NCBI GenBank assembly: GCA_030605835.1
Contig: JAUWHO010000025.1
Span: 1 to 64,000 of the forward strand
Source of the DNA: Candidatus Zixiibacteriota bacterium
GTDB lineage: Bacteria > Zixibacteria > MSB-5A5 > DG-27
Reading direction: 5' to 3'
Length of the DNA stretch: 64,000 nucleotides
Positions 37,339-42,536 of the stretch are shown piece by piece; position 1 is the stretch's first letter; the number at the start of each line of letters is the position of its first letter. The notes below the pieces were generated by a model, which saw nothing but the letters and a program-made list of their open reading frames with translations, was not told the DNA's origin and made no database searches. Position numbers and translations under genes: made by a program.

Positions 37339-37347
37339 TTAGAATTT
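37264..37347 (-). repeat. Flanking direct repeat, downstream copy
   Basis: Collinear with 38393-38475. Shared blocks are TCTAACATT(G/C)AGTT, then after exactly 29 divergent bases CTGTAAATC, GGAGGAGAAA and ACAGCA. The first block includes the stop codon of the outer-membrane protein gene; the GGAGGAG site leads only ATG-TAG (37276-37281). Confidence 0.7.
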
Positions 37348-38307
37348 TATCCTGCCACAAATAGCTGGCATAAAAGCAGGCGCAAAGGGTGCTTTATCAG
37401 CGTAAGGTATTCTTATACCCAGATCTATTGAGCCTGCATCTTCTTCACCAAAGGGCTGCCAACGGAACTTTGCTGCCATCCCATGAGAATAGGCATTACT
37501 GTCCTCAACTTTGTTTCCGTCTTTGTCTGCGTTGCTTCCAGCAATCCAACCCTGCAGACCTGCAATTACAACCAATTTGTGGTTGAGAAACTCGTATCCA
37601 AGAAAGGCACGATAAGCGAATCTATCACCTAAATCCCAGCTTGACTTAGAGAAACCTTCAATATCTTTAACCTCTCCCCGGTATTCATACCAAACATCGC
37701 TGCAGAGAAAGAAACTTTCGGTGAAGTGGGGATGAGAAAGAACCACCAATTTCAAATCGTGTGTTCCGCTCCCTATACCATTCTTTATCTTTCCGTCAGA
37801 GTTAATCGATGGCTTATATCCAACAGCAAGGAAAACCCCATCTTCCCATACAGGTGGTTTGGTGAATATCACATACTTTGCAGAGAGCCAGAGGTCATCA
37901 AGCCCGCTGTCGTCAATCTCCTTCCAAACCGTTTTATTACCTTTTTTCGACCAGACCTGTCTTTTCACATCCTTTATCACATACGGGAAAAAGACCCCGG
38001 CGCTCAGCCTATCTGTAATCCCATATTCTAGTCCCAGGGCAATTTTAGTCATCTTCTGATGCCAGCCATCGGGCAAATCCACCATTTCGTCATAATCTAT
38101 CAGGTATGGTGATTGACCGCGGCGAGCTTTCCACACTTCATCAGAGTAGCATTTTTGCGCCTGGATATATGCAACTTTACCGCGGATCTTAAATTTGCCC
38201 TTGCCCACAGCGTGAGGACAGCCAACAGTCTCCTCTGCAGAAGCATTCCCGAAAACCAAGAAAAAGAGATACCCAATGATCGCAATCGCGAAAAAATACC
38301 TGTTCAT
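37339..38307 (-). CDS. Outer-membrane channel-like protein of the iron cluster
   Basis: 322 residues. Signal peptide (MNRYFFAIAIIGYLFFLVFGNASA), then beta-strand-rich sequence of the 'MetA pathway of phenol degradation'/transporter type: KIALGLEYGITDRLSAGVFF, LWLSAKYVIF, DGVFLAVGYKP, FAYRAFLGYEFLNHKLVVIA, with a C-terminal Phe (GRIKF). A Cys near the mature start (GCPHA) is not a lipobox. It is likely a small outer-membrane barrel. It lies downstream of feoB, but a separate DtxR-type operator (38485-38504) about 180 bp before its start suggests its own iron-controlled promoter. GAGGAGAAAGG precedes the ATG. Confidence 0.75.
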   Translation of the reverse strand: MNRYFFAIAIIGYLFFLVFGNASAEETVGCPHAVGKGKFKIRGKVAYIQAQKCYSDEVWKARRGQSPYLIDYDEMVDLPDGWHQKMTKIALGLEYGITDRLSAGVFFPYVIKDVKRQVWSKKGNKTVWKEIDDSGLDDLWLSAKYVIFTKPPVWEDGVFLAVGYKPSINSDGKIKNGIGSGTHDLKLVVLSHPHFTESFFLCSDVWYEYRGEVKDIEGFSKSSWDLGDRFAYRAFLGYEFLNHKLVVIAGLQGWIAGSNADKDGNKVEDSNAYSHGMAAKFRWQPFGEEDAGSIDLGIRIPYADKAPFAPAFMPAICGRIKF

Positions 38308-38392: not shown

Positions 38393-38475
38393 TCAGCCTG
38401 CTGTTTCCATTTTCTCCTCCTGATTTACAGATTACTATGACAAATACTTGTTCTCTGTTAACTGAATGTTAGAGT
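38393..38475 (-). repeat. Flanking direct repeat, upstream copy
   Basis: Partner of 37264-37347 with identical internal spacing. Its GGAGGAG leads a six-codon frame ATG GAA ACA GCA GGC TGA (38393-38410). Confidence 0.7.
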
Positions 38476-38484
38476 GCTATAACT

Positions 38485-38504
38485 ATCTAAGAACACTCTT
38501 ACTT
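38485..38504. promoter_or_regulatory. Candidate DtxR-type operator, site 3
   Basis: ATCTAAGA-ACAC-TCTTACTT: perfect TAAGA-N4-TCTTA core, and the right half identical to the complement of AAGTAAGA at sites 1 and 2. Located between the feoB stop and the outer-membrane protein gene. Confidence 0.6.
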
Positions 38505-38561
38505 TCGTTCTAAATTTTTTTGTATCCTTGATAGCAAATCTTCTTTGCTTTGAATACACGA

Positions 38562-40706
38562 TTATCCCAACCCAAGTAACATTCCGCCTTGATAGACTAA
38601 AAAAGCTACCATCCAGGCCAAGACTACCTGATACAAAACGTTGAAGAACATCCATCTGGTTCCGATTTCCCGTCGAACCGCGATCACAGCAACAACACAG
38701 GGGGTATAGAGCAAAACGAAGAGCATAAACCCCAACGCGATAAGAGGTGTGATCCCGTGTCTGGGGTCTCCCAAAGCCTCTTTTAGACTCTCTGACTCCT
38801 CCGTTTCCTCTCCCACCTGGTAGAGAATTCCCATGGAGGATATCACCACCTCCTTGGCGACAAATCCAGTGAGGAGGCTTACTCCCATCCGCCAGCCAAA
38901 ACCCAAAGGACGTATGACCGGCTCCACGAGATGCCCCAGTCTTCCGATGTAGGATTTCTCGATAGATTCGGCTGCTTTCGCGGCCTCCAGTTCGGCTATT
39001 TGAGTTTCAACCTCGGGAGTGCCCACGCTTTCAAGGGAGTTGATCTGAGCATCATAGTCGACTGAATAATCAACATTCCGGGGAAAGGCTCCCAGAAACC
39101 AGAGGACTACCGAGGCGACCAGAATAACGCCTCCCATCTTCTTCAGATATATCTTAGCCCGCTCCCACATATGAATGAAAAGACCCAGAAGGGTCGGCCA
39201 GCGGTATGGCGGCAGCTCCATCACAAAGGGAGCGACCTCGCCTCTGAAAAGGATCTTACAAAAGAACCTGCCGATCAAAAAAGCCACGACGATTCCAGTG
39301 AGATATATGAGGAAAATGACGTTTCCAGCACTATCCGGAAAGAAGACTCCGGCGAAGAGGATATAGACCGGCAGGCGCGCACTGCAGGACATAAGAGGAA
39401 TGAGAAGTGTGGTGAGAACCCGGTCCTTTCTGGACTCCAGAGTCCGGGTGGTCATTATGGCCGGGACACTGCAACCGAAGCCCATCAGCATCGGGATAAA
39501 AGATTTACCGTGAAGCCCCATGAAGTGCATGATGCGATCGGTGATAAAGGCCGCCCTGGCCATATAGCCAGTGTCCTCCAGAAAAGCGACTCCCAGAAAG
39601 AGAATCATTATGTTGGGGAGGAAGACGATCACCGAACCAACTCCTCCTATCACGCCATCGACAACCAGTTCGTGAACCAAACCAGGGGGTATGGCGGTGG
39701 TGCCCAGACCAGCTAACCATTCCACTCCAGTCTCAATCCAATTCATGGGGTAAGCACCCAAAGAGAAAGTCAACTGAAACAAAAGCCACATCAGAACCAA
39801 AAAGACTGGATATCCCAGGAGGCGATTGGTGAGGACTAAATCGATCTGACGTGACAGCTCCATGCGGTCCCTAGGTTTCTCCCTGATCACCTCCCTCAGA
39901 GCCCCGTCGATGTATCCGTAACGATTCTCGGAGATGACTCTCTCTGGGTCTGACCCAGTAGTCTTGTGGATATGCTCGCAGGCAGCCTCCACCGCCCCCT
40001 TCAGCTCCGCATTTGCGGAATTGTCATCGGAAAAGATCTTCTCGATCTCCTCATCGCCCTCCAGCAACTTGACTGCAAGCCACCTGGGAGGATAACGATT
40101 GCTAACAGAGGAGCCCTTCTCAATCAAGGTGGCGAGACCCTTGACGACGTGCTCGAGGTGAGAACCATAGGTTATGGGAACGTGACGATGTCTGTCACTC
40201 TGATTCTCCACTAACTCCACAACCATATTCAGTAGGGTGTCGACCCCCTCGCCTCGATGACCGACAGTGAGCGCCACCGGTGTGCCCAGAAGTTCCTCCA
40301 GTTTCTCAAGGTCCAAATCGGCTCCGGATTTGCAGACCTCGTCCCACATGTTAAGGTCCAAAACGACGTCGGCCCCCATCTCCAGAAGCTGGGTAGTGAG
40401 ATAAAGGTTGCGGGCGAGGTTCCCGGCATCGATCACGTTGATGACGACGTCCGGCTTCTCTTCGATGATGTATCTTCTGGCAATTCTCTCCTCCAGAGAG
40501 TAAGCGGTCAGGCTATAGGTTCCCGGCAGGTCGACGACCTCCAAACGATAGCCCTTAAAATCGGTGAATCCAGTCTTCTTTTCTACCGTCACTCCCGGCC
40601 AGTTTCCCACCTTTTGATGGGCACCAGTGATGCGGTTGAAAATGCTGGTCTTGCCGGAATTGGGATTTCCCGCTAAGGCGATTCTTATCGTCTTCCCCTT
40701 CTCCAT
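38562..40706 (-). CDS. feoB: Ferrous iron transporter FeoB
   Basis: 714 residues. The N-terminal G domain has G1 GNPNSGKT (13-20), switch GNWPGVTVEKKTG, G3 DLPG (59-62) and G4 NMWD (119-122). A helical GDI-like region follows, then the membrane channel with two Gate motifs (for example GFGCSVPAIMTTRTLESRKDR, SCSARLPVYILFAGVFF) and LGRLGHLVEP/GLVAKEVV-type GFVAKEVVISSMG. It imports Fe(II) across the inner membrane. Its start overlaps feoA by 22 bp. Size and motifs are complete, and no FeoC is present. Confidence 0.97.
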   Translation of the reverse strand: MEKGKTIRIALAGNPNSGKTSIFNRITGAHQKVGNWPGVTVEKKTGFTDFKGYRLEVVDLPGTYSLTAYSLEERIARRYIIEEKPDVVINVIDAGNLARNLYLTTQLLEMGADVVLDLNMWDEVCKSGADLDLEKLEELLGTPVALTVGHRGEGVDTLLNMVVELVENQSDRHRHVPITYGSHLEHVVKGLATLIEKGSSVSNRYPPRWLAVKLLEGDEEIEKIFSDDNSANAELKGAVEAACEHIHKTTGSDPERVISENRYGYIDGALREVIREKPRDRMELSRQIDLVLTNRLLGYPVFLVLMWLLFQLTFSLGAYPMNWIETGVEWLAGLGTTAIPPGLVHELVVDGVIGGVGSVIVFLPNIMILFLGVAFLEDTGYMARAAFITDRIMHFMGLHGKSFIPMLMGFGCSVPAIMTTRTLESRKDRVLTTLLIPLMSCSARLPVYILFAGVFFPDSAGNVIFLIYLTGIVVAFLIGRFFCKILFRGEVAPFVMELPPYRWPTLLGLFIHMWERAKIYLKKMGGVILVASVVLWFLGAFPRNVDYSVDYDAQINSLESVGTPEVETQIAELEAAKAAESIEKSYIGRLGHLVEPVIRPLGFGWRMGVSLLTGFVAKEVVISSMGILYQVGEETEESESLKEALGDPRHGITPLIALGFMLFVLLYTPCVVAVIAVRREIGTRWMFFNVLYQVVLAWMVAFLVYQGGMLLGLG

Positions 40707-40975
40707 CTGAACCTGAATCTGCCTCTATCCTTTTTCAACCTCTCCACCAGGATATCCTTCGCCTCCTCCCGACGCAGGCTGATGTGACAACCACCTAACA
40801 GATACTCAACCGGGTCAGCCAGTGGCGCTTGCTTTACCACCGTCAGGTGAACCCCGGCCCTGAAACCGATATCCAAGAGACGTCGCCTGAATGCACCTTT
40901 ACCTTTTACCGCATGTATGACAGCAGTCTCTTCAGGCTCTAACTGGGAGAGAGGAACTACTTGGGTTTCGATCAT
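40685..40975 (-). CDS. feoA: FeoA-type SH3-like protein
   Basis: 96 residues. VVPLSQLEPEETAVIHAVKG, FRRRLLDIGFRAGVHLTVVKQAPLADPVEYLLGGCHISLRREEA is the standard FeoA core, which stimulates FeoB by an unresolved contact. An unusual basic tail (KKDRGRFRFRWRRGRR) is read in the stretch that also encodes the start of feoB, so it may be a by-product of the 22-bp overlap. It follows the unknown membrane protein gene by 103 bp. Confidence 0.94.
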   Translation of the reverse strand: MIETQVVPLSQLEPEETAVIHAVKGKGAFRRRLLDIGFRAGVHLTVVKQAPLADPVEYLLGGCHISLRREEAKDILVERLKKDRGRFRFRWRRGRR

Positions 40976-41078
40976 ATTTCCCGCCTCAACATCGGTCGCC
41001 CTCAGCCGTCGGAAGCAAACACGAACTCACTCACGGTTCTTGGACTTGCAGTCTTCCTCCAACTTTGGTGCCGAATCA

Positions 41079-41906
41079 CTATCCCGGGGCCGGTGACCGC
41101 AGATGATGGAGGATGAGATAAATCGACAGTCCAAACGCGCCCAGAATGGCGCCCATAACGGGTATGTTCAAACTCACCCAGGGCTCCCGGAAGATTCCCC
41201 ACTTGGCCAATATCTCAACCCCGTTCCAGAACACAACCACCGTGGGAATAGCATATCTGATGGCGTAGCCAAGCTCTTTTATCCGAAACAGTCGAAAGAA
41301 CAAGTACATCCCGCACCCCAAGGAGAGCACGAACACGCCGTAGGTTACCGGGTGGTGCGGTCCAAAAATCGAGCGGTCATAGCACAGAAGCAGGAGGACA
41401 TAAAAGACCCACATCACCACGATTATCTCGAATGCCACCCGAGGACCGTAGTTCACGACCCTCCCGGTGGCTACATCGCCAGACATAAGTCTCAGTTTGC
41501 GCCGCAGCCAGAGGAACATATTGCAGCGAACATCCTCGTGATAGAGGAGATAAAGTATGACTATCAGCACGAGGCCCCAAGTGTGCTCCATAATACGGTA
41601 TTCCCCCAAGGTGTATATCTCCCCGCTAACGATTAGGTCTTCTACGCCCAAGGCCTGCTTAGCAAATAGGAAACCATATTCCACCGCCCCGGTCCACAGG
41701 AGAATCCCCCCGATGACTCCCACAGCTGACTGTGATACTTCCGACTTCAAACCGCGCGTCCATGCGATCAGGATGATGCCCGCGAGCGTGAGCGCTATTG
41801 CGGCAATTACCTGGGCTGATGCTCCTCCCTTATTGATCAGGATCATCATAGCGTGCCCCACCGGCATCATAAAAAAGACGAACAGAAAGGCCTTTACCCC
41901 GGTCAT
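41079..41906 (-). CDS. Unknown eight-helix membrane protein in the Feo operon
   Basis: 275 residues, about eight membrane helices (5-24, 31-49, 61-81, 108-123, 157-176, 185-207, 214-234, 247-268). Polar, potentially metal- or heme-binding residues lie in or at the helices: His18 (MMPVGHAMMIL), Glu77 (TGAVEYGFLF), His108 and His123, the His184-His185 pair (FGPHHPVTY) and Glu231. No family recognised. It sits between the DtxR-type regulator and feoA, directly after operator site 1, so an iron-related role (accessory permease, ferric reductase partner) is plausible but unproven. The start is weakly supported; no good Shine-Dalgarno. Confidence 0.75.
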   Translation of the reverse strand: MTGVKAFLFVFFMMPVGHAMMILINKGGASAQVIAAIALTLAGIILIAWTRGLKSEVSQSAVGVIGGILLWTGAVEYGFLFAKQALGVEDLIVSGEIYTLGEYRIMEHTWGLVLIVILYLLYHEDVRCNMFLWLRRKLRLMSGDVATGRVVNYGPRVAFEIIVVMWVFYVLLLLCYDRSIFGPHHPVTYGVFVLSLGCGMYLFFRLFRIKELGYAIRYAIPTVVVFWNGVEILAKWGIFREPWVSLNIPVMGAILGAFGLSIYLILHHLRSPAPG

Positions 41907-42040
41907 GGGTCTTTGCTCTTTTCCGACGAGACCGTCCGTAGCGAGATGACCTTTGACGCTGTAGTCTCCACCTCGCCCCCGATAACTCTTGAGCTTTTCA
42001 AAATTGGCAAATTCATCACGAGTGTTACAACGCTCTTAGA

Positions 42041-42060
42041 AAGTAAGAACTATCTCACTT
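42041..42060. promoter_or_regulatory. Candidate DtxR-type operator, site 1
   Basis: AAGTAAGA-ACTA-TCTCACTT: inverted repeat matching 7 of 8 positions, between the regulator gene and the unknown membrane protein/feoAB operon, 135 bp before the latter's start. Confidence 0.65.
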
Positions 42061-42074
42061 CCCTTTAAAAAAAA

Positions 42075-42500
42075 TCATTTCAGTACCAGATCTCTGTACT
42101 TGCTCAGACAGCCCAACTCACTATCGACACAATTGTTTATGGTTTTCAGAAAGGCGGTCAAACGGTTCAGAGTCCCCCGACTCAGATCGTGCTCCAATCT
42201 GCAGGCCTCAGTTTCGGCTCTCTTGGGATCGATGAGAAGTATCTCCGCCAGGAAATGATATAATATCTTGTGAACTCCATAGATAGAGGCTCCGGTTTCT
42301 TTCCCTTTGGGAGTTAAGATGATCTTGCCATAGTGCTGCTGTCTTACCATCCCTGCTTCCTGTAGCTTGACAATTGCGCTTCGGACGGTGGGAACGGCGA
42401 CACCCCTCTCCCTTGCGACCTCGGTCACACCCACGGTGTCCTCTCTCTTGGACAAAAGATATATTGTCTCTAAGTAGTCTTCTAACCTCGAACTCAGCAT
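42075..42500 (-). CDS. DtxR/MntR-family metal-dependent repressor
   Basis: 141 residues. The N-terminal winged helix (about 1-65, RLEDYLETIYLLSKRE, VTEVARERGVAVPTVRSAIVKLQEAG) is followed by a dimerisation domain with metal ligands. No SH3 domain is present, so the length is that of MntR. Ligand set: Asp8 (LEDYLE) as in MntR, but Cys100, Glu103, His104 (EACRLEHDLS) as in DtxR's Cys102/Glu105/His106, plus His77. The Cys and the feo context favour Fe(II) over Mn(II). A palindrome (42517-42536) lies in its own promoter region, so it is likely autoregulated, and similar sites precede the rest of the cluster. Confidence 0.93.
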   Translation of the reverse strand: MLSSRLEDYLETIYLLSKREDTVGVTEVARERGVAVPTVRSAIVKLQEAGMVRQQHYGKIILTPKGKETGASIYGVHKILYHFLAEILLIDPKRAETEACRLEHDLSRGTLNRLTAFLKTINNCVDSELGCLSKYRDLVLK

Positions 42501-42516
42501 CGCATCTCACACGAAT

Positions 42517-42536
42517 AAGTAAGAGTGACCTTACAT
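42517..42536. promoter_or_regulatory. Candidate DtxR-type operator, site 2 (autoregulation)
   Basis: AAGTAAGA-GTGA-CCTTACAT, with perfect GTAAG-N6-CTTAC. It lies 17 bp before the regulator start and about 19 bp after a minus-strand TTGACT (42555-42560), where a bound repressor would block transcription. Confidence 0.65.

Follow-up and report, generated by a model that had tools for sequence, protein, structure and literature searches.

How is ferrous-iron uptake controlled at a locus where feoA and feoB lie beside a gene for a DtxR/MntR-family repressor, and which DNA sites and which metal would such a repressor use? We addressed this question in a 64,000-nucleotide stretch of a Candidatus Zixiibacteriota genome (hereafter the window), where five genes follow one another on the minus strand. 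The regulator (42075..42500, 141 aa) comes first, followed by a membrane protein of unassigned family (41079..41906, 275 aa from the first ATG, with about 7-8 predicted long helices), FeoA (40685..40975, PF04023 above cut-off), FeoB (38562..40706, 714 aa, with PF02421, PF07664 and TIGR00437 above cut-off) and a putative outer-membrane beta-barrel protein (37339..38307, 322 aa with a signal peptide and a sub-threshold PF13557 match, E 0.0011). The feoA gene together with a feoB that encodes both the G domain and the membrane domain identifies a Feo ferrous-iron uptake operon, and this FeoB is the only FeoB_C protein of the genome. Our preferred reading, to which we assign a probability of roughly 0.8, is that the repressor would repress its own gene, the membrane-protein/feoAB unit and probably the outer-membrane-protein gene, in response to Fe(II) or, less likely, Mn(II). 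A feo-linked, autoregulated DtxR-family repressor is an ordinary control circuit of a known type.

The regulator belongs to the DtxR/MntR family by both of its domains, the winged helix (PF01325, 48.7 bits for a cut-off of 26) and the metal-binding and dimerization domain (PF02742, 58.6 bits for a cut-off of 27), and it is the only PF02742 protein encoded in the genome. The domain matches stop at residue 125 and the protein ends at residue 141, leaving no SH3-like or FeoA extension. When aligned with DtxR and Bacillus subtilis MntR, its metal ligands are D8, E11, H77, C100, E103 and H104, four of which (Asp8, Cys100, Glu103 and His104) had been read correctly in the first-pass annotation. This set falls between the two classical ones: from the sulfur-ligand pair of IdeR/DtxR (Met10 and Cys102) the Cys is kept and the Met is replaced by Asp8, and from the MntR pair (Asp8 and Glu99) the Asp is kept and Glu99 is replaced by Cys100. 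B. subtilis MntR otherwise resembles the window's protein in size and has equivalents of Asp8, Glu11, His77, Glu103 and His104, but the genes adjoining the regulator here are feo genes and not Mn transport genes. The same annotation had called the site an unusual hybrid, a description that had to be abandoned: D-E-H-C-E-H is found in 107 of 112 distinct homologs, which were selected for their similarity to the window's protein and so represent one part of the family rather than all of it, and the same site has been characterized in Porphyromonas gingivalis PgMntR (PMC4805248). The remaining five homologs carry M-K-F-C-E-H (four) or D-K-H-C-E-H (one). The M-K-F-C-E-H regulators include L020, L027, L036 and L038 of Zixibacteria family f2, with Met as in DtxR and His77 replaced by Phe, and because of these ligands their second metal site may be lost.

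Three palindromes accompany these genes at exactly the sequences and positions first reported for them. Operator 1 (42517-42536), AAGTAAGA-GTGA-CCTTACAT, or ATGTAAGG-TCAC-TCTTACTT on the gene strand, lies 16 bp 5' of the regulator ATG. Operator 2 (42041-42060), AAGTAAGA-ACTA-TCTCACTT, lies in the gap between the regulator and the membrane-protein/feoAB unit; 14 bp separate it from the regulator stop and 134 bp from the first start codon of the membrane-protein ORF. Candidate operator 3 (38485-38504), ATCTAAGA-ACAC-TCTTACTT, is located between feoB and the outer-membrane-protein gene, 177 bp before the ORF of the latter. We consider it very probable that these palindromes are operators of the adjacent repressor. 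All three fall within 4.05 kb around the regulator and feoAB, and the palindrome is indeed absent elsewhere in the window, as had been noted: a scan for AAGTAAGA-N4-TCTTACTT at up to 3 mismatches returned these three sites only (mean of 0.26 in 100 dinucleotide shuffles, none of which reached 3). At up to 2 mismatches, the three operators were also the sole matches to this pattern in the whole 2.68-Mb genome, with the caveat that the pattern is derived from the three sites themselves. To lessen this circularity a second pattern was chosen, WWGTAAGA-N4-TCTTACWW, compatible with the closest relatives' operators, and at up to 1 mismatch it retrieved exactly the same three sites from the 2.68 Mb (control 0). 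The composition-based expectation is 0.30 matches per genome and 0.0005 per 4-kb segment. These genome scans were pattern searches with mismatch limits. A genome-wide search for further regulon members among sites with exactly 3 mismatches gave six extra sites, which is background (9 in total vs 13 for a reversed-pattern control).

The promoter elements at these sites are weak. Operator 1 overlaps a weak -10-like TAATGT located 16 bp after TTGACT, hexamers that were picked by eye and that together score 8/12, under the threshold of the promoter tool; promoter scans at the operator sites gave no strong sigma-70 match. No terminator-like structure was seen at these sites either.

Homologs were drawn from genomes of the class and the phylum as well as from named genome contigs. 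The closest regulator homologs, about 46-58% identical, come from Candidatus Zixiibacteriota and Candidatus Eisenbacteria, and in nearly all of them the regulator stands directly 5' of feoA and feoB, the order of the window without the intervening gene. Judged by this order, the membrane-protein gene appears to have been inserted in the lineage of the window. The palindrome is conserved at the orthologous promoter in both phyla, about 26-38 bp 5' of the start codon of the feo-linked regulators, for example as AAGTAAGACGACTCTTACAT at -29 (L040) and AAGTAAGACGAATCTTACAT at -38 (L043), and as AAGTATGAGTAGGCTTACTT at -33 in the Eisenbacteria locus L045. Each regulator-feoAB operon of the relatives has one operator within the stretches compared; the L040 regulator-feoA gap contains a weak palindrome at the place matching operator 2. 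In Zixibacteria family f19, a perfect TTAGA-N4-TCTAA precedes the start codon by 27-30 bp in 8/8 newly fetched distinct regulators, and this TTAGA form also occurs 5' of regulators in Myxococcota, Acidobacteriota, Omnitrophota and Stahlbacteria. Upstream sites in relatives were accepted at up to 2 mismatches in 10, a threshold that 14% of shuffled upstream regions also pass, so single weak matches mean little and it is the many perfect ones that far exceed the shuffle rate.

The window's FeoB is 63-65% identical to Eisenbacteria proteins (L045, L049 and L050) vs 47-59% to those of other Zixibacteria, and the regulator weakly groups with Eisenbacteria on the tree (support 83/41). Because of this closeness of FeoB and the weak grouping of the regulator, the data hint that the regulator-feo module has moved from one phylum to another.

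Could the palindromes be chance repeats, parts of terminators or other elements unconnected with the regulator? Two of the three carry two mismatches to a perfect palindrome, and in 126 other genomes of the class 2-mismatch matches to the motif stay at background (58 vs 200 for the control). This explanation is nonetheless highly improbable given the conserved position before orthologous regulators, the absence of the palindrome elsewhere in the genome and of terminator-like structure at the sites, as well as two properties considered next, the DtxR-type geometry of the palindrome and the way its half-site follows the recognition helix of the regulator.

In IdeR, one CCTAA repeat is read per monomer, and half of the classic 19-bp site is enough for a single dimer to bind; a 14-bp single-dimer consensus, TTAGG-N4-CCTAA, has been proposed (PMC8464063). 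The core of the window's sites, TAAGA-N4-TCTTA, has the half-site length and the N4 spacing of that consensus and differs from it at 2 of 5 bases per half-site (C1 to T and A4 to T). Because length and spacing equal those of IdeR, the sites are best read as predicted single-dimer DtxR-type operators. The comparison with actinobacterial IdeR/DtxR (e.g. Saccharopolyspora erythraea IdeR) extends to the fold, to the Cys, Glu and His ligands and to the control of iron uptake, which is predicted here; it ends at Asp8 in place of Met10, a 141-aa protein without SH3-like domain, TAAGA in place of TTAGG with no second overlapping dimer site visible, and three local operators vs a global regulon.

The second half-site change separates the window from most of its own relatives. 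Uncharacterized feo-linked DtxR regulators from other Zixibacteria, Eisenbacteria, Myxococcota and others share D-E-H-C-E-H and an N4-spacer palindrome near the start codon, but in most of them the palindrome is TTAGA-N4-TCTAA and helix position 40 is not Arg; the TAAGA shift occurs in one clade with a recognition-helix Arg40 (aligned to DtxR Ser42). Regulators with Arg40 are associated with 10 TAAGA-type sites (window included), 3 mixed and no TTAGA sites, and those without it with 38 TTAGA-type sites, 2 weak TAAGA-like matches and 1 tie. A single change suffices for Arg40 on the tree (support 76/85), and several independent origins were set aside on this ground; since Arg40 is one event inherited by many regulators, these helix-operator pairs are not independent evidence. 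It is plausible that Arg40 tolerates or prefers the change at base 4, because IdeR has Ser42 in contact with the phosphate backbone and Pro39 close to base pair 4 (PMC8464063). The TAAGA/Arg40 shift, apparently one evolutionary event, would be new here and is the sole part that a specialist might not expect. A broader scenario, in which a feo-linked DtxR subclade spanning at least two phyla switched from TTAGA-N4-TCTAA to TAAGA-N4-TCTTA via Arg40 and the window's lineage enlarged the regulon to the membrane protein and the outer-membrane protein, is tentative, the odds being somewhat against it.

Which metal would the repressor sense? Fe(II) is likely to be the main effector; both Cys100 and the classic feoA-feoB pair favor it over Mn(II). 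Sulfur ligands are tied to Fe(II) preference in IdeR (PMC10317159), and Cys100 is shared with DtxR and IdeR. PgMntR shows what the same Asp/Cys/Glu/His site can do, as it binds both Mn(II) and Fe(II), with the Cys needed for one Fe(II) site, and it is encoded in an operon with a FeoB-type manganese transporter whose promoter it binds (PMC4805248). A circuit sensing manganese, with an MntR-like sensor paired to a FeoB-type Mn transporter as proposed for P. gingivalis PgMntR/FB2, would fit the MntR-like Asp8, the higher Mn affinity of PgMntR and the increase of its DNA binding by Mn (PMC4805248), and also the best NCBIfam scores of the regulator, which go to MntR models, though far under their cut-offs (60.7 and 67.7 bits vs 138 and 153). 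We judge this unlikely: Cys100 points to iron, feoA and feoB are separate genes of the classic iron type, and the regulator lacks the two C-terminal FeoA domains of PgMntR.

The outer reach of the regulon is less firmly drawn than its core. The first-pass annotation had proposed one regulon covering outer membrane, inner membrane and regulator. Its center stands, with an operator conserved at the regulator-feoAB promoter and a genome that encodes a single DtxR-family protein and a single FeoB; the link to the outer-membrane gene is a sequence match, and the congener lacks an operator at the corresponding place. We lean towards operator 3 being functional. It is one of only three near-consensus sites of the genome and sits inside the feo cluster, which weighs against a smaller regulon made of operators 1 and 2 only (regulator and membrane-protein/feoAB), with operator 3 a chance or decayed palindrome. 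That smaller regulon, which we find unlikely, would be in line with the distance of operator 3 from its ORF, with the single operator of the relatives' operons, and with the outer-membrane-protein gene itself, for which no ortholog with a site was found in the class, where relatives were limited to one marginal match and no close one. In the only congener (G001, 52%-complete), the contig begins inside feoB (87% identical), and 3 bp past the feoB stop lies a porin-like 317-aa frame (L154 955-1908) non-homologous to the window's outer-membrane protein; no operator was found at this feoB/porin-like junction. That feoB is followed by an outer-membrane-type gene in each of the two congeners may point to a functional slot. 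A structural model of the window's outer-membrane protein was unusable (pLDDT 36). In the leader of its gene, a tiny minus-strand frame (38393-38410, ATG GAA ACA GCA GGC TGA) stands behind a strong AGGAGG and could encode a leader peptide or simply be noise.

The membrane protein has no match in Pfam or NCBIfam and one relative in 133 class genomes (G037, 41% identity). A model built from this 2-sequence alignment is helical and of low confidence (mean pLDDT 59.6) and matched nothing in the PDB at E<=0.001. The G037 relative (L121 1402-2268) adjoins genes that appear by eye to be band-7/HflC-like, not feo. Elsewhere in the congener, a near-copy of operator 2 with the same ACTA spacer, AAGTAAGAACTATCTTACGG (L128 1501-1520; G001:C124:4031-4050), lies across the stop codon of a gene for a secreted protease-like protein; it is probably a chance match and was rejected as an operator.

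Altogether, the preferred reading is favored because the regulator has the family domains, the only three sites in 2.68 Mb cluster around it and feoAB, the position before orthologous regulators is conserved, their geometry is that of IdeR sites, the half-site form tracks residue 40, and the genome encodes one DtxR and one FeoB protein. Against it speak the weak promoter elements at the sites, the congener's different gene and missing site at the place of operator 3, the control of Mn transport by PgMntR with its identical ligands, and one Fur-family protein encoded elsewhere in the genome, which could be the iron sensor. From the computed features, we infer DNA binding, repression, the identity of the metal and the membership of the membrane-protein and outer-membrane-protein genes as follows. 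The repressor would dimerize, and a single dimer carrying Fe(II) or, less likely, Mn(II) would occupy each 20-bp palindrome at the core promoters, shutting off its own gene, the membrane-protein/feoAB unit and probably the outer-membrane-protein gene. Upon a drop in metal, the apo-repressor would leave the DNA and ferrous uptake would be switched on.

These findings amount to a concrete prediction of a metal regulon in an uncultured phylum. They also indicate that, across a large section of the DtxR family whose members are mostly feo-linked, an Asp/Cys metal site is the norm. Members of this family are reported to read DNA mainly indirectly, and it is in this context that the linked change of one helix residue and one operator base would offer a small, testable case of a shift in DNA specificity.
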